Source: Magnolia sinica (lineage: Eukaryota > Streptophyta > Magnoliopsida > Magnoliales > Magnoliaceae). Taken from it: 64,000 nucleotides of DNA. The stretch lies in the NCBI RefSeq assembly GCF_029962835.1, contig NC_080577.1:23604501-23668500 (forward strand). Reading direction: 5' to 3'. Shown in pieces: positions 1,431 to 53,999 of this stretch. The position numbers and the translations under genes are program-made. Position 1 is the stretch's first letter. Each line of letters opens with the position of its first letter. The notes under the pieces are model-generated. The model saw only the letters and a list, made by a program, of their open reading frames with translations, searched no databases and was not told the origin of the DNA.

Positions 1431-1992
1431 GAAGCGGATTGCGTACTGAGTAACTCAGTACGCTAAACGCACTGAGTAAACTCTGTGGGGTCCACCGTGA
1501 TTTATGTACTTTATCCACTCTGTCCATCCATTTTATCAGATAATTTTAGTGTTTGAGATCAAAAATTAAGTATATCCAAACCTCAATTGGACCACACCAC
1601 AGGAAACAGTGTGAATTGAACATCTACCATTGAAAATTTCTTGGGGGCCTCAAAAGTCTCCGATCAAGTTTGTATTTATGATATCCCTTCATCCATGTTT
1701 GTGTGATCTTATGAACAGGTTGGATGAGAAATAAACATCACTGTGGACCCTATAAAGGTTTCAACGGTGGAAATCATTATTCCAACTGTTTCCTGTGGTA
1801 TGGCCCACTTGATCTTTGGATATGCTTAAATTTTTGTCTAAAAGCATAAAATAAGATGGAAAAATTGATGGACGGTGTGGATAGACCAGATACATTCACG
1901 CTGGGCCCAACAGAGTTTACTCAGTACGATAAGAGCGTACCGAGTAACTCAGTACGCAATCCGACTTCCTGAGTTAGTACGCAATCCGCTTC
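1431..1992. mobile_element. MITE with CTCAGTAC palindromic ends
   Basis: Left end GAAGCGGATTGCGTACTGAG... is mirrored by ...CTCAGTACGCAATCCG and then a second GCAATCCGCTTC at the right. The subterminal GTACTGAGTAACTCAGTAC is itself a perfect palindrome. Between the ends lies the shared core (gtggggtccaccgtgatttatg ... atggacggtgtggata). The element is about 560 bp, non-coding, and ends about 220 bp upstream of the ATG of the G3BP-like gene, so it may form part of that promoter region. Confidence 0.75.
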
Positions 1993-25129: not shown

Positions 25130-26165
25130 GTCAAACTGGAAATTCAGCGGGGCAAACATGAAATTGAGCGAAGCAAACATGAAATTGAGTGGGGAAAACT
25201 AGAAATTTAGCGGGTAAAACATGAAATTGAGCAGGGCAAACATGAAATTAGGGTTGAAAGTCGGGCCGGTTGGTTCGGGTTGGTGCTCAACCCTAACCCA
25301 ACCCAAGGTTCCTATATCTAAACCTTGACCTAACCCAACCCAATCTTGAGTTGGGAATTCTCAACCCAAGCCCAACCCAAGAGAGCTCGACGGGTTAATT
25401 AGGTTGGTCGAGTGTATACATGTCTATTTGGGAGAGAGAAATCCGATATATCTTATTAGCTTAAGTCCTTGGAAATGACGTGGACAAATGAGACCCGACA
25501 TCACTAGTGTACCTTCTACACATACAATCCACACTCAATTATAATTTATAAGTAACTAATATATTGATTGGGTTCAGGTTGGGTCAGGCAACCTGGGACC
25601 TCAACCCAAACCCAACCTAAGTTTTATTTTGGTGTTTGTATAGCCCAAGCTTGAGATTAGACCTGATATATCCTGCCCGAGTTTAACCCAATGTTGGGTC
25701 GGTCACAGGTTGGTCGGGTTGAACCCGCCCAACTTTCAGTCGTACATGAAATTGAGGGGGGCAAACTAGAAATTCAGAGGGGCAAGCATGAAATTGAGCG
25801 GAGGAAACTAAAAAATCAGCAGGGCAAACTAAAAAAATCAACGGGGCAAACTAGAAAATCAGCAGGGCAAACTATGAAATCAGCGGGGCAAACTATGAAA
25901 TCAGCGAGGCAAACTAGAAAATCAGCGGGGCAAACTAGAAAATCAGCGGGGCAAATTATGAAATCAACGGGGCAAACTATGAAATCAGCGAGATAAACTA
26001 GAAAATCAGTAGGGTAAACTAGAAAATCAGCGGGGCAAACTAGAAAATCAGCGGGGTAAACTATAAAATCAGTGAGGCAAACTAGGAAATCAGCGGGGCA
26101 AACATGAAATTGAGCAGGGCAAACATGAAATTCAACGGGGCAAACTAGACAATTAGCGGGGCGAA
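25130..26165 (+). repeat. 21-bp minisatellite array, plus orientation
   Basis: Units of 21 bp such as CAGCGGGGCAAACTAGAAAAT with variants (TATGAAAT, CATGAAATT). It is interrupted by a MITE at 25250-25743. Exact 21-bp spacing keeps one frame open (SAGQTRK-type repeats), which is a by-product of the period. Confidence 0.85.
25250..25743. mobile_element. MITE inserted in the 21-bp array
   Basis: Ends AGGGTTGAAAGTCGGGC and the reverse complement of GCCCAACTTTCAGTCGT. ACATGAAATT flanks both sides (25240-25249, 25744-25753), a 9-10 bp target duplication of Mutator size, though the flanking array itself contains this word. The interior is rich in CAACCC/GGGTTG. Related segments lie at 26440-26670 and 30490-30965. 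Confidence 0.6.
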
Positions 26166-27064
26166 CTTAACAGATATTTTCATTGCTTAAGCCGATAAAT
26201 CTAAACTTATTCAATGTTCAAATGGACCACACGAAATGAAATTTTTAATTGAACTTCTATTGTTGATCATTTCTTAGGGGCTATAGAAGTTTTGGATCAA
26301 GCTTGTAATTGTTTTTTCTATTAATCCATGTCTGTATGATCTTATGAATAGGTTTGATAACAAATAAACATCACTATTGGGCCCATTATGGTTTCAACGG
26401 TGGAAATCATTATGCCCATTGTTTCTCATGGTGTGATCCCTTGGAAATGACATAGACAAATGAGACCCGACATCACTAGTGTACCTTCTACACAAACAAT
26501 CCACACTCAATTATAATTTATAAGTAACTAATATATTGATCGAGTTCGGGTTAGGTCGGATAACTTGAGACCTCAACCCAAGCCCAACCTAAGTTTTATC
26601 GGGTTGGTGTTTGTATAGCCCAAGCTTGAGATCAGACCCGATATATCCTACCCAAGCCCAATCCAATGCAGTGGGGAATTGAACATCTACCATTAAAACC
26701 CTTTTAGGGATTACAGAAGTTTTGTATCATTATGAAATTTGTTTTTCCTCTTCATCAGGTCTTTGCGACCCTATGAATGAACTCAGATGAGGAGGATTTT
26801 TCACAAACATCACAGTTGGCCCCACCTGAGTTTCTAATGGTTGACGCTCATTCAACACTGTTTCCTGTAATGTGGTATAGTTGAGATTTGGATATACCTC
26901 ATTTGTGGTATCATACCATAAAATGATCTGGAAAAATATATGGACAGCATGGTTGAAAATCATACATCATGATGGGGCCCACAGACCGGCGACGATCCGC
27001 CATTGGCGGGTGGCAGGAGGAGTACCCAATCCGTTTCTGTGAAAAGGAGGGGTATTTCCGTGAA

Positions 27065-28272: not shown

Positions 28273-28544
28273 CTACGTGATAGCTAGATCTGTCTTATTT
28301 TTCGTCTCAAGCCTTAATACGAGCTTGTCAAATAGATGGACGGTTTGCATATAACACATACCTTATAATGGGACCCACAAAATGCCGTAGGAATTATAAC
28401 GAAAAAAGAAAAAGAAAAAGAAGTTAGTGAATTAGGGTCAGTGGGACCCTATAGCTAATGGTGAAAATAAGTGTTTTGACCTGATAGAGGGAGGTGGTTT
28501 CACACATACTGCATAGTGGGCTATATAGAGCATGAGTGTAGTCC

Positions 28545-28735
28545 TATTTTAGTTTGCCCCGCTGTTTTTCTAGTTTGCCCCACTCATATTTCAGTTTGCC
28601 CCGCTGTTCTTGTTTGCCCCACTCATATTTTAGCTTGCCCCGCTGTTTTTCTACTTTGCCCCGCTCATATTTTAGTTTGCCCCGCTGTTTTTCTTATTTG
28701 CCCCGCTGTTTTTCTAGTTTGCCCCGCTAGATTTT
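28545..28735 (-). repeat. 21-bp minisatellite array, inverted
   Basis: Alternating CTAGTTTGCCCCGCTGTTTTT and CATATTTCAGTTTGCCCCGC units (given within limit), period 21 bp. Continuous with the AT-rich inverted arm that follows. Confidence 0.8.
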
Positions 28736-28843
28736 TAACCATCGACCCGAGAAAATCTTGGAAAATAACTAGGTTGGTTGGCTAAATTAGCTTCTCCTAC
28801 CCCCAAAATCATATGTGGTACGTTAAGTAAATCATTCTAGTTT

Positions 28844-28974
28844 GGATCCTTACTCTTGCTCGAGTGGTAGACTCTTACGAGTTTCAACACCCGGTCAAGC
28901 GTTTGAGTATCCATAGGTGGTGAAATTCCACTAGTGTGAGTGTGTGGGGGTGTGTGTGCGTGTGTAAAAAAAAA
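28844..28974 (+). mobile_element. SINE, second family, in the AT-rich arm
   Basis: TGCTCGAGTGGTAGACTCTT (A-box like), CCGGTCAAGCGTTTGAGTATCC in the B-box region (in pieces), TGGTGAAATTCCACTAGTGT, a GTGTGTG stretch and A10. Flanks ATCATTCTAGTTT / ATCATTCTAATTT form a 13-bp target duplication with one mismatch. The same insertion at the same site is present at 31706-31843. Confidence 0.7.
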
Positions 28975-30019
28975 ATCATTCTAATTTAGGAGATATGCTT
29001 GTTAAATACATAGATAAAGAAATGAATTAAAAGATAAAAAAATATTTTTATATACTTATATATACATATTTACATAATTATGTATTAGAGAAAAATGTAA
29101 AGGAGAAAAAGTTCTCCCCTAAAAAAAAAATAAAATTGCCAGACTTCTGCGGCTTGTTTGTTTTTTTTTTTTTTTTTTGCTGTTCTTCTTATGTGGGTCC
29201 CATCATGAGGTCTGTGTTATATCCAAACCGTCCATCTATTTGGCGAGCTCATATTGAGGATTGAGACGAAAAATAAGATAGATCTAACTATCCAGTGGAC
29301 CACACTCTAAAAGGCAGTGGGGAATTGAATGTTTACCATTGAAACCCTTTTAGGGGTTACAAAAGTTTTGGATCATTATGAAATTTGTTTTTCTTCTTCA
29401 TCCAAGTCTTTGTGACCCTATGAATGAACTTAGATGGGGAGGATTTCTCACAAACATCACAGTGGGCCCCAACTTAGACGGGGGAGGATTTCTAATGTTT
29501 GACGCTCATTCAACACTATTTCCAGTAATGTGGTACACTAAGATTTGGATATACTCATTTTTTGCCTCATACCATAAAATGATCCGTAAAAATATATGGA
29601 CGGCATGGATGAAAAGCATACATCATGGTGGGGCTCACAGACCACCGAAGATCCGCCATTGGCGGGTGGCAGGCGGAGTAGCGAATCTATTTCTGTGAAA
29701 AGGAGGGGTATTTTCATCCAGAGATTCCGACTCCGTACGAGGAGGTCCAAGTGCGTATTCTAAGTTTGTATTGCCACTAAAAAACCGCTGGATAAAAAAA
29801 ATGAGCGGGGCAGGCATGAAAATGAGCGGGGCAAACTGAAATATGAGTGGGGCAAACTGAAATATGAGCGGGGCAAACTAGAAAATCAACGGGACAAACT
29901 TGAAAATGAGAGAAAATTCACCCAGAGAGAGAGAGAGAAAAGGGTTTCATCAGCCGAAAATCGAAGATAGTGAAGAAAAATCCCTCAATTTCAAGAGAAA
30001 ATGAAAACAAATCAAAGCT

Positions 30020-30490: not shown

Positions 30491-30967
30491 TAGGGCTGAA
30501 AGTCGGGCCAGTTGGTTCGGGTTGGTGCTCAACCCTAACCCAACCCAAGGTTCCTATACCTAAACCTTGACCTAACCCAACCCAATCTTGGGTTGGAAAT
30601 TCTCAACCCAAGCCCAACACAAGAGGGCTTGACGGGTTGATTGGGTTGGTCGGGTGTATGCATGCTAATATTTTTATTATTATATTAGTTTATTATATTT
30701 CAATATAGGACTTATTTTTTGTATCTATGATTTTATTAATTATATACGTGATTATTCATCATAAAGAACTTCATTTTTTTCCTTTAAAAAACCAAGCTAA
30801 AATATAGGACTACCCCTTTAAAAAGTCATGTAGCATAGCACGCAATCTATTTGGGAGAGAGAAATCCGACATATCTTGTTAGCTTGAGTCCTTAGAAATG
30901 ACGTGGACAAATGAGACCCAACGTCACTAGTGTACGTTCTACACAAACAATCCACACTCAATCTATT

Positions 30968-31650
30968 TGCCCGCTGCTTTTCATGTTTCCTCCGTTGATT
31001 TTCTAGTTTGCCCCGCTCATATTTCAGTTTGCCCCGCTGCGTTTCATGTTTCCCCCGCTGATTTTCTAGTTTGCCCCGCTCATATTTCAGTTTGCCCCGC
31101 TGTTTTTCTAGTTTGCCCCGCTGCTTTTCATGTTTCCCCCGCTGATTTTCTAGTTTGCCCCGCTACTTTTCATGTTTCCCCCGCTGATTTTCTAGTTTGC
31201 CCCGCTGTTTTTCTAGTTTGCCCCGCTCATATTTCAGTTTGCCCCGCTGCTTTTCATGTTTCCCCCGCTGATTTTCTAGTTTGCCCCGCTGCTTTTCATG
31301 TTTCCCCCGCTGATTTTCTAGTTTGCCCCGCTGCATTTCATGTTTCCCCCGCTGATTTTCATGTTTCCCCCGCTGATTTTCTAGTTTGCCCCGCTCATAT
31401 TTTAGTTTGCCCCGCTGTTTTTCTAGTTTGCCCCATTGCTTTTCATGTTTCCCCCGCTGATTTTCTAGTTTACCCCGCTCTTTTTCATGTTTGCCCTGCT
31501 CTTTTTCATGCTTGCCTCGCTCATTTTCATGTTTGGCCCTCTCATTTTCATGTTTGCCCCGCTAATTTTCATGCTTGCCCTCTCATTTTCATGTTTGCCC
31601 CGTTGAATTTCATGTTTGCCCCGCTGAATTTCATGCTTGCCCCGCTAAAT
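30968..31650 (-). repeat. Longest 21-bp minisatellite array, inverted
   Basis: About 32 units; four types recur: CTAGTTTGCCCCGCT, CATATTTCAGTTTGCCCCGC, CATGTTTCCCCCGCTGATTT and late CATGCTTGCCC variants. The 228-residue frame across it (FLVCPAH/ISVCPAV heptads) is a by-product of the 21-bp period. Confidence 0.88.
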
Positions 31651-31705
31651 TAACTTCTCCTACCCCAAAATCATATATAGTACGTTAAGCATATCATTCT
31701 AGTTT

Positions 31706-31843
31706 GGATCCTTACTCTCCCTCGGGTGGTAGACTCTTAGGAGTTTCAACACCCGGTCAAGCGTTTGAGTATCCATAGGTGGTAAAATTCCACTAGTGTG
31801 AGTGTGTGGGGGTGTGTGTGCGTGTGTAAAAAAAAAAAAACAA
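31706..31843 (+). mobile_element. SINE, second family, same site as 28844-28974
   Basis: CTCGGGTGGTAGACTCTTAG, TTTCAACACCCGGTCAAGCG, GTGTGTGTGCGTGTGT and A12 inside the same flanks (ATCATTCTAGTTT ... ATCATTTTAATTT). A shared insertion means this arm was copied after the SINE arrived. Confidence 0.7.
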
Positions 31844-33139
31844 ATCATTTTAATTTAGGAGATATGCTTGTTGAATACATGGACAAAGAAATGAATTAAA
31901 AGATAAAAAAATATTTTTATATACTTATATATACATATTTATATAATTATGTATTAGAGAAAAATGTAAGGGAGAAAAAGTTCTCCCAGTAAAAAAAAAA
32001 TAAAAAATAAAAAATAAAAAAAATCTGCCAGACTGTCGCGGCACTACCGTCGGTTCGGCGGCACTGCCGGGGCAGTCTGTGGTTTTTTTTTTTTTTAACT
32101 GTGTTGCATGTGAGTGTCCAATCATGAGGTTTGTGTTATATCTGAACCGTTCATCTATTTGGCGAGCTCATATTAAGGCTTGAGACGAAAAATAAGATAG
32201 ATCTAGCTATCAAGTGGACCACACTGTAAAAGGCAGTGGGGAATTAAACGTCTACCATTGAAACCCTTTCAGGGGTTACAAAAGTTTTTGATCATTCCGA
32301 AATTTGTTTTTCCTCTTCATCCAGGTCTTTGTGACCCTATGAATGAACTTAGATGGGGAGGATTTCTCGCAAACATCATAGTGGGCTCCACCTGAGTTTC
32401 CAATGGTTGACGCTCATTCAACACTGTTTCTGTAATGTGGTACACTTGAGACTTGGATATACCTCATTTGTGGTCTCATACCATAAAATGATCTGAAAAA
32501 ATATATGGACGGCATGGATGAAAAGCAAACATCATGGTGAGGCCCACATACCACTGACTATCCGCCATGGGCGGGTGGCAGGAGGCGTACACAATCCGTT
32601 TCCGTGAAAAGGAGGGGTATTTTCGTCCTGGAATTTGTTGTCCATACGAAGAGGTCCAAGTGCGTATGTTAAGTTTGTATTGTTTCAAGAATATCCAATG
32701 GATAAAAGGTGGGGTCCACAGTCGTAAATTTCTCTATCATTTTATGGCTTGAGCCAAAGAATTTGACAGATAAAAATCTGTAGTGCACCACCGTACCATA
32801 GAAAAGAGTGGGGAGAGTGATTCCCACCGTTGAAACTATCCTGAGGCTCACCATAATGGTTATTTGAAATCCAACCTATTCAAAAGTTAAAAAAGACATG
32901 GAAAGATGGGAAAACACAAAAATCAGCTTGATCTAAAACTTTTATAGTCAATAAAAGTGTTTAATGGTGGGTGTGGCTGTCCGACACTGTTTTATGTGGT
33001 GGGTCCACCAGAACTTTGGATTTAACTCATCCTTTGGATATTGCCTAATCTCGCCGAATGAATGGAAAGTGTTTATACAAAACATACATCATGGTGCGCC
33101 CACAAAACTTGATGACGTCACTTCATCCATAATATATCT

Positions 33140-38339: not shown

Positions 38340-38705
38340 AGAAGGCAAATCAAGGCGGGAGTAGACCACCATATAAACCAAGGGGGAGAGCGATGACCAC
38401 CATTGAAACCCTATGAAGGTCCACGGTGATGTTTATTTGAGAGCCAAGTTAATCATGTGTTAACGAAGCCATGAAAGAAGGGAAACATAAATATAAGGTT
38501 CATCTAAAACTTTCTTGGCCTTTAGGAATTTTTAATGGTAGCGTTACTCTCCCCACTGTTTTCTATGGTGGGGTCCACTGGAGCTTTGGATATAGCTCAT
38601 TCTTTAGATCATATCCTAATATGATCTCTCCAAATATACGGATGGTTCGGATAAATAACAAACATACATCATAGTGGGGCCCACTGAACTTGGTGACGTC
38701 ACTTC
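38340..38705. mobile_element. MITE ending in GTGACGTCAC
   Basis: Interior phrases (ccaccattgaaaccctatg, cactgttttctatggtggg) and right end CATCATAGTGGGGCCCACTG, AACTTGGTGACGTCAC, matching the right end of 452-1045. Confidence 0.55.
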
Positions 38706-38743
38706 AATAGCGCGTCTTGCTACTCAACCTGTCAGTAACTAAT

Positions 38744-39080
38744 CCGCGTCGGACCCCGCCTGTCCCTGGCTCGGCAGGGACAGATCTATGTGGGGCCCAC
38801 CGTGATGTATCCGTCCAGCCCTTTTCTCAGTTGCCCCAAAAATGAGGCAGATCCAACGCTAAGGTAGATCACACCAAAAAGTAAGCAAGATTGCATTAAA
38901 TGCAAGTCGCATTAAATGTGGTGTGGTCCACTTTACAGTTGGATGTGCCTATTTTTGTTTCATACCTTTCAAAATGATCCGAAAAAAGGGATGGACGGCG
39001 TGGATAAACAGATACATCGCGGGTGGGCCCCACACAGATCTGACCGTTCCGTGCTAGACACGGCAGGTCGGACGCAATCC
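38744..39080. mobile_element. MITE with CTGTCCCT/AGGGACAG hairpin end
   Basis: Left block CTGTCCCT...AGGGACAG forms a hairpin, followed by AGATCTATGTGGGGCCCACC. The right end mirrors the block imperfectly (GGTGGGCCCCACACAGATCT, then GTCGGACGC). The internal part is shorter than in relatives. Confidence 0.6.
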
Positions 39081-39408
39081 ACCTCCATAAATACGGCACT
39101 TTAGGATCCACCATTAGATGATTTATGCTCCGCTTTTAGGTTATGCCATGATTCAGCTGATCACACCGTTGGCCTGTTGGGCCCCACCGCTGATTGATCA
39201 TACCAGAAAACGCTTGATACGTTCAGTGTGTGGCTAGGATCTTCCACTAAGGGAGATTTTTGTGGGTCAAACCATTCACACCAGGTCACATCGTACCAAT
39301 GGCCTGGATTACTGGATGATGGACCCCACTCGTGCATGCTGAAAAGCCGAGCATGATGTGCATATCTTCTGCTCAAGGATTACGTAATTCCGCGTGGAAA
39401 CAAGGACG

Positions 39409-39453
39409 CGGATTGCATGCGAAAGCCTTTCATTGTCAATCCGCGTCCCTAGA
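39409..39453. repeat. Small inverted repeat with GACGCGGATTG ends
   Basis: GGACGCGGATTG and CAATCCGCGTCC, 12-bp perfect arms around a 21-base loop. The arms equal the terminal word of several MITE families here, so this looks like end-to-end joined termini without a core. Confidence 0.6.
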
Positions 39454-39944
39454 TAAAAATCAGACTGCACGTGCCGGGTCATCTGACGTGGATGAACTCA
39501 TGGAGGCATTACACGATCTCATTTTCGACAAGTGGGGCCACTGTTCGTTGATCCAAGCCATGGAATTATAGCCCCATTGAGTGATACGTGCAACAAAAAT
39601 CTCCAGATGGGGTAATCCCAAACACTTAAATAGGTGGCCAAAAAGGCAACGGCTAAGAAAGAAGATACATCAACGTTTCCTCTTTTTAACCAAAAGAAGG
39701 CCAAATGTTCTAGGATTAGGATCTTTCAGTGTCGGTGATTTTCGGTATGTCGGTGATCCATGGTGTGTACCATCATTTCAACGTTTTAGATCATCTAAAT
39801 GTGGCCCCTGTCTCTAGAAACTAAAAGTGCAAGCGTACTATAAATCTATAGGCACCAGCACTGTATAACAATACCTCTTTAGTCATTAAAACGTCTGGGT
39901 CTGATCTTATCTCTGTCAGATCCTCGCGCATTGAATCCAACGGT
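39454..39944. other. No gene seen
   Basis: Intergenic sequence with no supported gene, RNA or complete repeat. Confidence 0.4.
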
Positions 39945-39953
39945 CCTTGCTAT

Positions 39954-40489
39954 GGGAACGGATTGGCTACTCCCCCTGCCACCCGCCAATGGCTGGTGGT
40001 CGGTGCTCTGTGGGCCCCACCATAATGTATGTGTTTCATCCATGACGTCCCTCTATTTTTATAGATCATCTTATGGTATGAGACCAAAAATGAGATATAT
40101 CTCAATCTCAAGTGGACCACATTACAAGAAATAGTGTTGAATGAGTGTAGACCATTAAAAACTTTTTGGGGGCCATAAAATTTTTGGATCAAGCTGATCT
40201 TTGTTTTTTTCCCTTCATCTAGGTCTGTATGACATCATCAACAGATTGGATGTCAAATAAACAGTACAGTGGGCCTTAGGAGGATTTTAATGGTGGATAT
40301 CCAATCACTATTGTTTTACTGTGGTGTGGTCCACCTGAGACTTATATCCTTTAATTTTTTAGATAAAGCCCTAAAATGATCTTTAAAAATGAATGAACGG
40401 AATGGATGAAACACATACATCATAGTCAGCCCACGGAGAATCGAACACCAGCCACGGGGCTGGTGGCAGGGGAGTAGCCAATCGTTTCC
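39954..40489. mobile_element. MITE, GGATTGGCTACTCCCC end type
   Basis: Left GGGAACGGATTGGCTACTCC, hairpin CCACCCGCC-AAT-GGCTGGTGG, then TGTGGGCCCCACCATAATG. The right end is the mirror. Flanks CCTTGCTAT / CCTTCCTAT make a 9-bp target duplication with one mismatch. Confidence 0.8.
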
Positions 40490-40494
40490 CCTTC

Positions 40495-40612
40495 CTATTT
40501 TGCTCCGGAGGTAGACTCTCAAGGGTTCCAGCATACATAGGTGGTGAAATTCCACTACGGTGAGTGTTTGTACGTGCGAGCGTTAAAATAAAAAAAAAAA
40601 AAATCCAAAGAA
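40495..40612 (+). mobile_element. Decayed SINE, second family
   Basis: TCCGGAGGTAGACTCTCAAG, CATAGGTGGTGAAATTCCAC and an A13 tail match the SINE at 28844-28974. Flanks are not clear. Confidence 0.5.
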
Positions 40613-40662
40613 AACAACTTTGATACTCGGGCCGAGGATGATACGCGGAACCTAATTTTAGG

Positions 40663-41196
40663 GGAAACGGATTGGCTACTCTCCCTCCTACTACCCAATA
40701 GCTGATGGTCGATGCTCTGTGGGCCCCACCATGATGTATGTGTTTCATCCATACCTTCCATATATTTTTACAGATCATTTTATCATATGAGAGTAAAAAT
40801 TATGTATATACAAATCTCAAGTAGACAACATTATAAGAAACAGTGTTGAATGAGCATAAACCATTAAAAACCTTTTTGGGGCAATAAAAGTTTTGGATCA
40901 AGACAATCTTTGTTTTTTCCCTTCATCTGGTCCTTGACCTAATCAACAAATTGGATGTCAAACAAACAGCACAGTAGGCTTTAGGATGATTTTAATGGTG
41001 GATATCTAATCACTATTATTTTCCTGTGGTGTGATCCACCTGAGATTTATCTCTCTCATTTTTTATATAAAGCCCTAAAATGATGTGTAAAAATGGATTA
41101 ACAGTATAGATGAAACAAATACATCATAGTAGTGCCCACAGTGCACCGACCACCAGCCATGGCCCTCGTGGCAGGGGGAGTAGCCAATCCGTTTCC
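40663..41196. mobile_element. MITE, GGATTGGCTACTC end type, perfect 9-bp target duplication
   Basis: Starts GGAAACGGATTGGCTACTC and ends in the reverse complement (GAGTAGCCAATCCGTTTCC). AATTTTAGG stands on both sides (40654-40662 and 41197-41205), nine of nine, the target duplication size of Mutator-like elements. The interior is the shared core. 534 bp, no coding capacity. Confidence 0.88.
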
Positions 41197-41234
41197 AATT
41201 TTAGGTGGAAATTGCATACGTGGCATACAGGTAA

Positions 41235-41766
41235 CGGGAGCGGATTAGGTACTACCCCCGCCTGTTCCGAGCTCGGGACAGGCGGACGCTCCGAGGGCTA
41301 GTGAGGGGCCAAAATGACTTATAAAATTTATCCAAACTGTCCATCAATTTTTAAATATGAATTTAAAAATCGAACTGAAAATTAAAATAGATCCAAGCTC
41401 ATATGGATCATAAAGTGGGGATTAAATTCCCACCGTTTAAAATTTCTTGGGGCCATAGGAGTTTGGATCAAGATGATATTTATTTATTTTTATTTCATCA
41501 AGTTTCATATGACCATATCAAGAGGTTGGATGGAAAATAAACAACACGGTGGACCCTAAAAAGGTTTCAATGGTAGCCATCCTTAGCACTGCTGCTTCAT
41601 GTGGTGTGGTCCACTTAAGACTTGGATCTAGCATATTTTTGGTCCCGCACTCTAAAATGATATGAAAAACTGTATGGACGGTGTGGATAAAATTCATACA
41701 TCAGAGTGGCCCATCAGTAGCCTGTCCCGAGCTCGGAACAGGTGGGAATAGTACCTAATCCGCCCC
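41235..41766. mobile_element. MITE, GGATTAGGTACTA end type
   Basis: Left GGGAGCGGATTAGGTACTAC, then a near-perfect palindrome centred on CCGAGCTCGG; right is the mirror (GTACCTAATCCGCCCC). The core follows the usual order. No target duplication seen. Confidence 0.75.
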
Positions 41767-41794
41767 AAAATAATAGCAAGACGCGTGTGATTTC

Positions 41795-42316
41795 GGAACG
41801 GATTGGCTACTCCGCCTGCCATTAGCCAATGGCTGGTAGTTGGTGCTCCTTGGGCCCCACCATGGTGTATGTGTTTCATCCATACCGTCCATCTATTTTT
41901 AAGATCATTTTATAGTATTCTACAAAAAATGAGGCATTTCAAAATCTCAAGTGGACCACATTATAGGAAACAGTGTTGAATGAACGTCAACCGTTAAAAA
42001 CTTTTTGGGGCCATAAAAGTTTTGGATCGAGCTGATCTTTGTTTCTTCTATTCATCTGGGTCTGCATGACCTAATCAACAGACTGGATGTCAAATAAACA
42101 ATAAAGTGGACCTTAGGAGGATTTTAATGGTGGATATCCAATCAATATTGTTTTCACGTGGTGTGGTGCACCTGAGATATATATCCCTCTAATATTTGGT
42201 ATCAGTCACTAAAATGATATTTAAAAATGGATGAAACACATACATCATAGTGGGGCCCACTGAGCACCGACCATCAGCCACGTGGCTGGTGGCAGGGGAG
42301 TAGCCAATCCGTTCCC
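41795..42316. mobile_element. MITE, GGATTGGCTACTC end type
   Basis: GGAACGGATTGGCTACTCCG ... GAGTAGCCAATCCGTTCCC. Flanks TGTGATTTC / TGTAATTTC give a 9-bp target duplication with one mismatch. Third copy of this subfamily in 2.4 kb. Confidence 0.8.
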
Positions 42317-42352
42317 TGTAATTTCCTCATTAAAACACACCGTCAGTTCTAA

Positions 42353-42865
42353 GGACGCGGATTTCCCTTTAGCAGAAAGTTCCTGCGCAAGGATGCTGGG
42401 TGGGGCCCACCGAGATGTTCGTGAGAAATCCTTACCGTTCATCCGCTTCTAGAGATCATTTTAGAAAAAGTGACTAAAAATTATGTGTATCCAAATCTAA
42501 AGTCGGTCACACGAGAGGAAACAGTGGGAATTCAGTGTGAATCGTTGAAACATTCTTAGGGCCATAAAATTTATGTATAAGTCAATTTTTTTGGTATTTT
42601 CACTTCATCCCAGTGGTAATGACCTTATAAACGGTTTGGATGGCATATAAACATCAAGGTGTAACCCAGGATGATTTCAACGGTAGGAATTTATTTTCCC
42701 TCACGTGTGACACACTTGAGTATTTGATCCACCTCATTTTTGGTCTCTTTTCCGAAAATGATCACTCAAAACGGATGGACGGGGTGGATTTCTCAAAAAC
42801 TTCCTTGTGGGCCCCACCCAGCATCCTTACGTAGGAACTTCCTGTTTCGCAGGAAATCCGCGTCC
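42353..42865. mobile_element. MITE, GGACGCGGATTTCC end type
   Basis: Left GGACGCGGATTTCC, right GGAAATCCGCGTCC, with subterminal hairpin TTCCTG-TTTCG-CAGGAA at the right. Inner core GGTGGGGCCCACCGAGATG and mirror. Flanks CAGTTCTAA / GAGTTCAAA agree at seven of nine positions. Confidence 0.75.
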
Positions 42866-42872
42866 GAGTTCA

Positions 42873-50400: not shown

Positions 50401-51829
50401 TGTGCCAAGACACGAGTCGAGTATAATGTAATTCTCCATAGGCCAGATCCATTACATGGGTTTGCATATCGGGCTTTATCCACAACCCGACGTGAGGGGC
50501 CCAAAATGATGCATTGATTACATCTAACTCGTCCATCATGTGAGATCCATTATGTTCTTCCAGGAAAGTAGGGGATTCAAAACTCAGGTAGGCCACACCA
50601 CAGGAACGGTTGCAATAGGGAACCCACCATTAAAGTTTCCGAGATATCTTGTGGGTCCACTACATGTTTTTATATGCTATCCAATCCATTCGGAAGGTGT
50701 GGCCCACTTGAGTTCTAGATTGGCCTAATTACTATAATTACTAAGTTCCTAAGTATAAAACAAGGGGCCCACATTATGGACGCAGAGGATGTTTTGTACA
50801 TATATTGTGTATTGAGTTACTCAGTAGGCTAAGCGTACTGAGTAAACTCTATGGGATCCACCGTGATTTATGTATTTGATCCACCTCGTTTATCCATTTT
50901 AACAGTTAATTTCAGTTTCTAATCCCAAAAATAAAGTGCATCCAATAATCAAGTGGACCACACCGCAGGAAATAGTGTGAATTGAGTGTCTACCATTGAA
51001 AAATTTTAGGGGGCCACAGAAGTTTTGGATCAAGCTGAAATTTTTGTTTTCCCTTTATCCAGATCTTTGTAATCTTATGAACGTGTTGGATGACAAATAA
51101 AGATCACTGTGGGCACTAGAAAGGTTTCAACGGTCGAAATCATTATTCCCATTGTTTCCTGTGGTATGGTCCACTTAAGCTTTGGATTTGCTTCAATTTT
51201 TGGCTTAACTTATAAAATTAATTGAAACAACGGATGGACGGATTGGATAAACCACATAGAGGTGGGCATATTGGACCCGATCCGGTGGATCCGACCCGAT
51301 CCGACCCGACTCGGTACCGTTCCGAACAGAACCGACGGCCTAGATCGGCCCTGATCGAGTTTGCCAATCCAGATCCGATCATTTTCGGGTCAGGTTCGGA
51401 TAGAGGTGTATCCGGACAGAACCGATCCGAAAACTCGAACCGAAATGGTCCGACCCGACCCAACTCGACCTGACCTGGATATAAATATATATCTAAAAAA
51501 AAATTTCATCGCCTAGGCTTTTCGTTCGGCGCCAAAAAGTCCCGCCCAGCTCTATCTCTATATCTATCTATTTCTCTTTATATTTGCCTCTCTGTCTCAG
51601 TTGAAGAAAAAAAGTAAGAAGAAGGCTAATTAAATATTCTTTGATAGATCAAATTCTTTTTTTTTGCGGTTGGGTTTTGTAGTTTCATGATATTTCTCTG
51701 TTGGAGAAGAATATATACAGAGAAGTGGTGTATAGTTTAATTCGAAAGAGAGAGTCGTACTCGTAGCAGGTTGACGGTCATACCAGAAGTTGACGGAAGT
51801 AGATTGATTGGATCGACCGGTGTAACGGG

Positions 51830-52394: not shown

Positions 52395-52910
52395 GAAGCG
52401 GACTGCGTACTGAGTAACTCAGTACGGTAAGCGTACTGAGTAAACTCCGTGGGCCACTGTGTCACTCGTGCGTTGTATCCACTCCGTCCATTTCTTTTAA
52501 CACATAATTTTATATCTCTATGCCAACAATGGATTATATCCAAACCTCAAATGGACCACACCACTGGAAACTGTGTGAATTGAAAATCTACCGTTGAAAA
52601 ATTCTTGGGGACAAAAGAGGTTTTAGATCAAGGTGATATATGTGTTTTTCATTCATCCATGTCCTTCTCATCTTATGAACAGGTTGGATGACAAATAAGC
52701 ATACTGGGGCCTTAAAAAATTTTCAACGGTTGCAATCAATAGTTTCACTTTTTCCAGTGGTATGGCCCACTTAAACTTTGTGTATACATCAATTTTGGAT
52801 TGAACCCATAAAATGATCTAGAAAAACGAATGGACGGCGTGGATAAACCACATGCATTCGCAGTGGGCCCAACCTAGTTTACTCGGCACGATAAGAGTAT
52901 ACTACACGGA
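52395..52910. mobile_element. CTCAGTAC-type MITE inside the hAT element
   Basis: GAAGCGGACTGCGTACTGAG, TAACTCAGTACGGTAAGCG at the left; right CGAATGGACGGCGTGGATA, GGGCCCAACCTAGTTTACTC, CGATAAGAG. Same subfamily as the element that hosts the hAT insertion. Confidence 0.7.
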
Positions 52911-52917
52911 CCTTTCC

Positions 52918-53045
52918 TAGGCTAGCTGGTGCTAGCTACAAATAGCATTAAATAGGCTAGCTGGAGCTAGCTACAAATAGCATTAAATAGCATTTATAAA
53001 GCTTCTCTAAGAAGCTATGTCACCGATGTGAAGCTTCTTCAAGAA
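52918..53045. repeat. Short tandem and hairpin repeats
   Basis: TAGGCTAGCTGGWGCTAGCT plus ACAAATAGCATTAAA occurs twice (period about 39 bp), followed by AAGCTTCTCTAAGAAGCT and GAAGCTTCTTCAAGAAGCT, two small hairpins. Confidence 0.65.
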
Positions 53046-53559
53046 GCTACACAACAATAGGCTTTATTCAACTGGGTAAACTATGTGGGCCCATCATGAA
53101 TTTTTTTGGTTTATCTACACCGTCCATCAGTTTTTTCAGATCATTTAAGGAGTTGATACTAAATTTTAAGTGAATTCAATAATTAAATAGATCACACCAT
53201 ACGGAACACTGATATAATGATTTTAATGTCGTTGAAAAAAACGAACGATTCAAGCTTTCCCCAATCTGATCCGACTCGGTTTTCTTGACCGGGTCGGACC
53301 CGAATCGATTCAGAAAAACAAACGTTCGAATCTGTTCGAATTAGATGATCCAAACTCGGTCCCGGATCGGAACGAGTACGGATCAGGTTCTACAAATTTC
53401 GAATCTGGTCGGATTGGGCCGAATCCGATCCGACTCGGTCCGATGCCCACCTCTAAAACCACATACATTCAAGTTGGGCCCAACCAAGTTTACTCAGTAT
53501 GAAAAAAAGCATACTGAATAACTCAGTACGCATTCCGATTTTGTGGTGAAGAGCGTGGT

Positions 53560-53895
53560 GTGGATTATCTGTGGAGCCCATCGTGGTGTATATATTTTAT
53601 CCACACCGTCCATACATTTTTCAAACTCATTTTAGGGGATGAACCCAAAATTGAAGTATATCGAAGCTGAAGTGGACCACATCGCAAGAAATAGTCGCAA
53701 TTGCACGCTTATAATTGAAAACTATTTCAATGGTGGACGTCATTATCTCCCTTATTTTCTATGGTGTGGTCCACTTGAGTTCTTGACATACTTCAGTTTA
53801 GAAATAGTTTACTGAAATGATCTGTAAAAACGGATGGACGGCATGGATAAAACAGATACATCGCGGTGGGCTCCTTAGAGAATCCACACGATGCT
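53560..53895. mobile_element. MITE forming the upstream region of TOM22 copy 1
   Basis: Left GTGTGGATTATCTGTGGAGC with CCATCGTGGTGTATATATT; right ACGGATGGACGGCATGG, ATCGCGGTGGGCTCCTTAGA, GAATCCACACGATG. The right half is also present upstream of TOM22 copy 2 (63467-63560). Confidence 0.65.
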
Positions 53896-53999
53896 ATTAC
53901 GTGGTGAGCTCCTCACTTTACAATCCACGTCTCGATTCCCCTAATTCCCCTAACCTGCTCGAGCCACCTCTCTCGTCCTACTCTCTTTCTCTCTCTCTC

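Follow-up and report, generated by a model that had tools for sequence, protein, structure and literature searches.

The 64,000-bp stretch of the Magnolia sinica genome analyzed here (contig NC_080577.1, positions 23,604,501 to 23,668,500; called the window below) carries, at 38,340–42,865, five neighboring foldback miniature inverted-repeat transposable elements (MITEs) of 518–536 bp each, E1–E5. Sequences hit by E1–E5 form 41 stretches and occupy 12,575 of the 64,000 bp. A first-pass annotation of this DNA claimed that these and other elements share a core, and this is borne out in the window and in the genome alike. Allowing up to three mismatches, the core boxes CCCACCATGATGTATGTG and ATCCATACCGTCCATC have 30 and 36 matches in the window, against 0.06 and 0.47 expected, and scanning the window with a 44-bp box gave 69 hits, where one Markov control sequence gave none. 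Across the genome (1.84 Gb searched, 127 contigs), an 18-bp core box is matched 63,567 times when up to one mismatch is allowed, compared with 0 for its reversed control. The annotated "mirror" of the core also exists, but it is the opposite arm of the same element; for example, E1 matches its own reverse complement at 68% over its whole length.

The elements are non-autonomous Mutator-type foldback MITEs. Located tips read GG..CGGATT, and 29 of the 46 elements with located tips are flanked by 9-bp target duplications with 8 or 9 matching bases, whereas a control of 44 mispaired end pairs gave 0/44 at 7 or more matching bases. Those 46 belong to a set of 67 symmetric elements, the other 21 being without a located tip pair. 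Duplications of this length fall in the 9–11 bp range of Mutator-type MITEs, E1–E5 have the inverted terminal repeats and the short length of that class, and the copy number is high, both for the box and for an outer end common to end types A, C and K (10,257 genome matches against 6 for the control). Domains of Mutator-like elements (MULEs) are plentiful in the genome, with at least 150 scored matches and 1104 candidates. Several equal-scoring MULE domain matches, with open frames of ~715–780 codons and located on different contigs, may be recently moved autonomous copies. In the excerpts used here of a survey of 207 plant genomes, Mutator-type MITEs make up the largest share (PMC12550479). 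Pattern scans of viral and prokaryote contigs yielded no match. A literature search of partial coverage did not find a description of this family, so it may still be published.

The end blocks vary by subfamily, as had been annotated. Types A–H were recognized by eye in the window and in genome loci, and type K was found via a pattern search; the sample of genome loci is non-random, made up of the matches that came first on contig 1, together with loci on contigs 1–5 that have an exact type C hairpin. The window by itself displays types A (E1, E2 and E4), B, C (E3), D (E5), E, F and G. The type C block is CCGAGCTCGG and the type D block TTCCTG, while the type E block (GTGACGTCAC or a relative) is found at 467, 1020, 33104 and 38684. 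The elements at 1431, 50806 and 52395, listed in the first-pass annotation among those with differing outer blocks, do share the core, and all three have a single end type, B (GTACTGAGTAACTCAGTAC). Genome searches returned 4,949 matches to type B, 918 to the type C hairpin, 344 to the F outer end through the box and 260 to the A/C/K outer end joined to GTGGGGCCCACC, each against 0 in the control. Hairpin-less ends (type J) were also seen, as in locus L019 (2095–2381), where the outer end runs directly into the box.

The annotated idea that end blocks contain palindromes of their own holds in the consensus of types A, B, C, D and F (z = -2.0, -5.9, -3.1, -4.0 and -5.0, respectively, the F value coming from 100 listed ends; a two-row F consensus gave -1.7). 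Structure extends beyond the ends, since the near inner arms of A, B, D and E are also structured in consensus (z = -2.3, -1.9, -1.8 and -2.7). Taken copy by copy, 44 individual end blocks were more structured than random windows (p = 0.003). The same 44 were no more structured than the inner arms (p = 0.37), and the notion that end blocks are structured in every copy was rejected.

Among 120 paired elements, 47 had at least one untyped end and were left out, and in 67 of the remaining 73 (window and genome together) one end type is present on both sides, compared with a mean of 19 and a maximum of 31 in shuffled data. The identical left and right blocks of the first-pass annotation are thus found in 67/73, and fail in the six others, in e29 (29193-29638) and e32 (32112-32547), where an A end is paired with an unrelated left end, and in the element with ends at 38790/39033. 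The likeness between the two sides is also evident in 1412 cross-type comparisons of 63 elements (4 of the 67, <360 bp apart, were excluded), where one third would be expected without signal: an element's own two arms were closest in 1410 comparisons of the end, 1395 of the box, 1259 of the near arm and 562 of the far arm. As own-pairing declines from the end to the far arm, the likeness between arms extends ~165 bp inward and then fades.

End type also agrees with the core. On a tree of 216 typed inner arms (137 columns, 135 of 213 inner branches open), from which the 141 of 357 arms without an end type are absent, the eight end types need 33 label changes, compared with 124.7 when shuffled, and 0 of 200 shuffles were as low. 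Types F (5 changes for 6 rows, 23/500 shuffles as low) and G (2 for 2) are uninformative on this tree. Several single rows were placed among other types, most of them long or unsupported; one, A16 (L003), was examined further. When five F arms were compared with other types, the five best matches of each placed it nearest to C, by small margins, but medians did so in only 2/5. Free exchange of ends between cores, for which the first-pass annotation had expected discordant core and end-block trees, is not supported, given this agreement: the end labels follow subfamily lines and are not freely swapped. A core tree in which all 5' arms group before the subfamilies was considered and toned down. 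In an earlier arm tree a 5' group across subfamilies had a support of 80; with elements oriented by their middle, the far-arm same-side share is 0.333, against a mean of 0.299 and a maximum of 0.337 under random orientation.

Within types, identity is similar along the arm, at 0.70 for same-side ends, 0.72 for the near inner arm and 0.69 for the far inner arm. Between types, the ends fall to 0.50 (shuffled, 0.486), whereas the box stays at 0.67, the near arm at 0.61 and the far arm at 0.57 (shuffled, 0.47–0.50), the 56-nt end window being too short to take in the outer tip of type C, whose block is longer. A seven-element set from the window gave end/inner arm identities of 0.81/0.78 within types and 0.51/0.64 between them. 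Among 31 arms, different-type ends remain at 0.49–0.52 at every level of core identity, in a comparison where types are defined by the ends and only the 5' versus 3' rows (9 elements, ends 0.54–0.86) are label-independent. Nor do these data fit gradual divergence alone. For the ends of A, C, F and K, the hand-read consensus sequences, aligned in three parts, have an identity of 0.83 over the outer 21 bp, 0.43 over the palindrome and 0.73 over the inner flank (shuffled, 0.46, 0.46 and 0.49); among A, F and K the inner flank reaches 0.83–0.92. The changeable unit in these four types is mainly the 17–27 bp palindrome adjoining the kept outer end. The first-pass annotation suggested that ends and core evolve as modules, and this stands insofar as part of the end is discrete, with unrelated palindromes in A, C, F and K, and both ends change together; free swapping does not.

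The reading that we favor, with a probability of about one half, is that the subfamilies were founded by palindrome turnover common to both arms, followed by multiplication and decay. At founding, a master copy would receive a new palindrome ~25–45 bp from the tip (A, C, F and K), or would come to differ in the whole block outside the box (B, D, E and H). The terminal ~165 bp of its two arms would be made alike, through either arm-to-arm conversion or a fresh inverted duplication. The subfamily would then multiply using whichever transposase recognizes its ends, and the copies would decay independently. Three parts of this account are inferred: that the palindrome was replaced in one event, that the arms went through conversion or duplication, and that a transposase recognizes the palindrome. 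Most likely, the palindrome would be part of the site recognized by the transposase, so that a subfamily gaining a new palindrome would come under another transposase yet keep its inherited body. The transposase-binding motif of Mutator lies at a similar distance from the tip as the palindromes here. Mutator terminal repeats hold a ~32-bp motif of this kind, according to the excerpts used of PMC3310237. A more specific proposal, which we put forward only tentatively, is that the palindrome, as a hypervariable cassette next to the conserved outer end, serves as an exchangeable address label: it would be swapped at founding, be common to both ends and choose the transposase. On that view, hairpin-templated repair could supply fresh labels, and the hairpins found deleted or inverted may be its traces.

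A number of observations speak against palindrome turnover, or weaken the case for it. The consensus palindromes of E, G, H and K are not significant (z = -1.25, -0.7, +0.9 and 0.0). The far arm favors no topology (own arm 562, same side 477, opposite side 373). The inner flank of C has an identity of 0.59–0.61 to the other types, near the shuffled 95th percentile of 0.58, so that clear conservation of C is limited to the outer side. The outer end itself was the means of finding type K and some of the A sample; the likeness of the A and C outer ends is not built in, since the search for C used its hairpin and A was first picked up through its box. Double changes that keep a base pair exceed shuffled values only modestly, with 10 against 4.8 in A (13/1000 shuffles as high), 5 against 2.1 in B (48/1000), 12 against 1.8 in C (0/1000; the C loci were selected by an intact hairpin, which favors pairing) and 10 against 5.2 in F (43/2000; 71 distinct ends among 75 of standard length). 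The F double changes carry no weight, since slid alignments give 6–13. The link between any palindrome and a transposase is putative, and selection driving divergence in fast episodes would leave a similar picture. That present-day copies are under strong selection to keep their pairing was considered as well and rejected, given the modest excess of double changes.

The hairpins themselves argue that the two ends are not being levelled at present. The type A loop AAT/ATT is found at the 5' end in 22/25 elements and at the 3' end in 1/25, as read by eye from printed ends (a C-run in the flank spoiled the automatic classes, and 1 of 26 elements was too short), and the type B center base differs between the two ends in 4/4 pairs among the matches listed. 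With such side-specific bases persisting in types A and B, ongoing left-right levelling was rejected, and the exchange or conversion of terminal hairpins during transposition suggested by the first-pass annotation is not borne out as a process now in progress. Among 100 listed F ends of 344, 75 are of standard length and 11 lack much of the hairpin; the loop is TAAT in 70 and ATTA in 4. One of 28 type C hairpins is flipped. In one F element (G000:C1:7601824-7602341) the hairpin loop seems to have its usual orientation at only one end and to be reversed at the opposite end. Flip-flop of terminal hairpins occurs in some viruses, and the reversed F loop recalls such behavior.

Another potential explanation is ordinary subfamily divergence, in which the terminal repeats change stepwise with their transposase and selection keeps the two ends alike, with no replacement. 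It would account for the agreement of end type with core lineage, for the equal divergence of ends and core within types and for the weak excess of double changes in the palindromes. It would not account for different-type ends at chance at all levels of core identity (types there being end-defined) or for a palindrome at chance though the adjoining outer end is kept at 0.83, and independent changes would not make two ends alike over 40–60 bp; we regard it as rather unlikely. End blocks might instead pass from one existing copy to another whose core differs, with recombination or conversion taking place in the common box. Candidates for such exchange include L003:2036-2462 (E core, one A end), possibly L046, and the chimeras e26, e29 and e32 of the window, and Galileo offers a precedent in the excerpts used of PMC3573991. 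Against this, 67/73 elements are symmetric, ends agree strongly with cores, and most mismatches can be put down to nesting or assignment errors. Among the six mismatched elements, window 53571-53876 (G/G beside a B remnant) and L038 (a low-scoring F) were judged to be wrong assignments, L020 (a low-scoring A with H) a weak case, and L089 a nested insertion, with an A element inside an H end and its own end eroded. What look like true hybrids among the 73 are L003:2036-2462, whose inner arms group with type E in the tree and which has one A end and an A box, and perhaps L046 (H/E). Two ends of the same subfamily around the core of another were not established in any of the 67 symmetric elements, although the single rows of the tree were not each examined. 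Exchange between copies is an improbable origin of the end types.

An equally improbable course is capture, in which the ~400-bp core was taken up repeatedly, Pack-MULE-like, between the palindrome-bearing terminal repeats of different MULE families. This would yield one core with unrelated two-sided ends that track the core lineage, and MULE domains are plentiful; the outer 21 bp common to A, C, F and K and the pairing of box and near arm within elements, which simple core capture does not predict, argue otherwise. The palindromes could also lack a role and have arisen incidentally, through hairpin-templated mutation or repair of foldback DNA. The F ends with a lost hairpin (11/100 listed) or an ATTA loop (4/100 listed), the single flipped type C hairpin among 28 and the hairpin-less ends of L019 would be expected in this case. 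However, subfamily-specific palindromes persist in hundreds to thousands of copies and 27/28 C hairpins retain a one-base asymmetry, which makes this the least credible of the explanations.

Partial precedents exist in the CMITEs of Acropora corals and in Galileo of Drosophila mojavensis, both known to us here from excerpts of the papers cited. In CMITEs, as in the present family, the interior is more conserved between families than the terminal repeats, and only a short terminal motif is common to the families (PMC2872659). Unlike the Mutator-type foldback elements of ~520 bp with 9-bp duplications described here, CMITEs are of the piggyBac type, about 100 bp long, with terminal repeats of 13–14 bp; their terminal motif CC[C/T]T was not found at the located tips, and the excerpts do not describe subfamily-specific palindromes (PMC2872659). 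Galileo is foldback-like, has subfamilies and includes chimeric copies, some with both ends of one subfamily and the middle of another, but it belongs to the P superfamily, with 7-bp duplications and long, internally repetitive terminal repeats (PMC3573991). Copies with ends of two subfamilies exist here too (e29 and e32, plus 1–2 of the 73 typed pairs); exchange between copies, seen in Galileo (PMC3573991), is rare. A palindrome replaced beside a kept tip, alike at both ends, is described for neither system in those excerpts (PMC2872659, PMC3573991). Mutator-like elements with multiple (tandem) terminal repeats resemble the present family in their 9–11 bp duplications, long terminal repeats and tandem ends, as far as the excerpts of PMC3310237 go, but the tandem ends here are occasional and do not define subfamilies. 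Tandemly duplicated end sequences were observed at window 1912-1990, in L031 near 1460, and in L056 at 942 and 1026. Maize Mu elements, which belong to the same superfamily as the MITEs here, share their ends and differ inside, the reverse of the present pattern.

A family that combines a single body with some nine end labels, several present in hundreds to thousands of copies in one genome, makes it possible to test how non-autonomous elements switch the transposase they rely on. If palindrome turnover does redirect subfamilies, each label should match the terminal repeat and the binding site of a different autonomous MULE. The pattern also bears on MITE classification: clustering by ends alone would split the family into seemingly unrelated groups, and clustering by core alone would mask its structure.

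The elements read in the window are collected in Table 1. The ends at 38790/39033, in the short F-like element, bear a CTGTCCCT-like block (type F).

Table 1. MITE copies read in the window, with positions counted from its first base.
Element	Positions	Strand	Ends	Remarks
E1	39954..40489	+	Type A (palindrome CCACCCGCCAATGGCTGGTGG left, CACCAGCCCCGTGGCTGGTG right)	Whole-length foldback; flanks CCTTGCTAT/CCTTCCTAT, 8/9 bases match
E2	40663..41196	+	Type A	Perfect 9-bp target duplication AATTTTAGG
E3	41237..41768	+	Type C (palindrome CCTGTTCCGAGCTCGGGACAGG)	Inverted repeat 41237-41283/41720-41766, 91%; target duplication not recognized at its flanks
E4	41795..42316	+	Type A	Target duplication TGTGATTTC/TGTAATTTC, 8/9
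E5	42349..42866	+	Type D (GGACGCGGATTTCCTGC...)	Arms 42373-42521/42696-42844 79% complementary; flanks match at 7/9 bases
e04	1432..1967	+	Type B (GTACTGAGTAACTCAGTAC)	Right end partly duplicated in tandem outside (1912-1990)
e50c	50801..51258	+	Type B left, right end not recognized	
e52	52395..52918	+	Type B left, right end decayed, B-like	
Short F-like element	38748..39085	.	Unlike palindromes: CTGTCCCTG..CAGGGACAG left, CCGTG..CACGG right	
Type G element	53525..53933	.	Type G (right end GTGAGGAGCTCAC)	Beside B remnant; left end first mis-typed B
e29	29178..29693	+	Chimera, A end	H-lineage left arm (0.92 to e24b) and inverted A-type 5' arm (0.75 to E1)
e32	32109..32603	+	Chimera	Built like e29; 0.94 to e24b, 0.81 to E1
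e26	26652..27037	-	A end	Truncated relative of e29/e32; 26665-27061 vs 32230-32626 at 89%

A 1.3-kb direct repeat (28542-29797 and 31395-32707, 80.6%) bears e29 and e32. Given these common duplicated surroundings, and the similarity of e26 to e32, the three chimeric elements may represent one copied event. A piece of ~45 bp at 39399-39448 shows D-like ends in either direction (GGACGCGGATTGC..CAATCCGCGTCC) without a core in between, and may be a bodiless end. Among the window's open reading frames is also what we take to be a copia-type retroelement, at about 34.3–37.1 kb. Two minisatellite-like arrays, at 25744-26167 and 30962-31651, are mutually inverted with ~80% identity, the second forming a repetitive 240-codon open frame.

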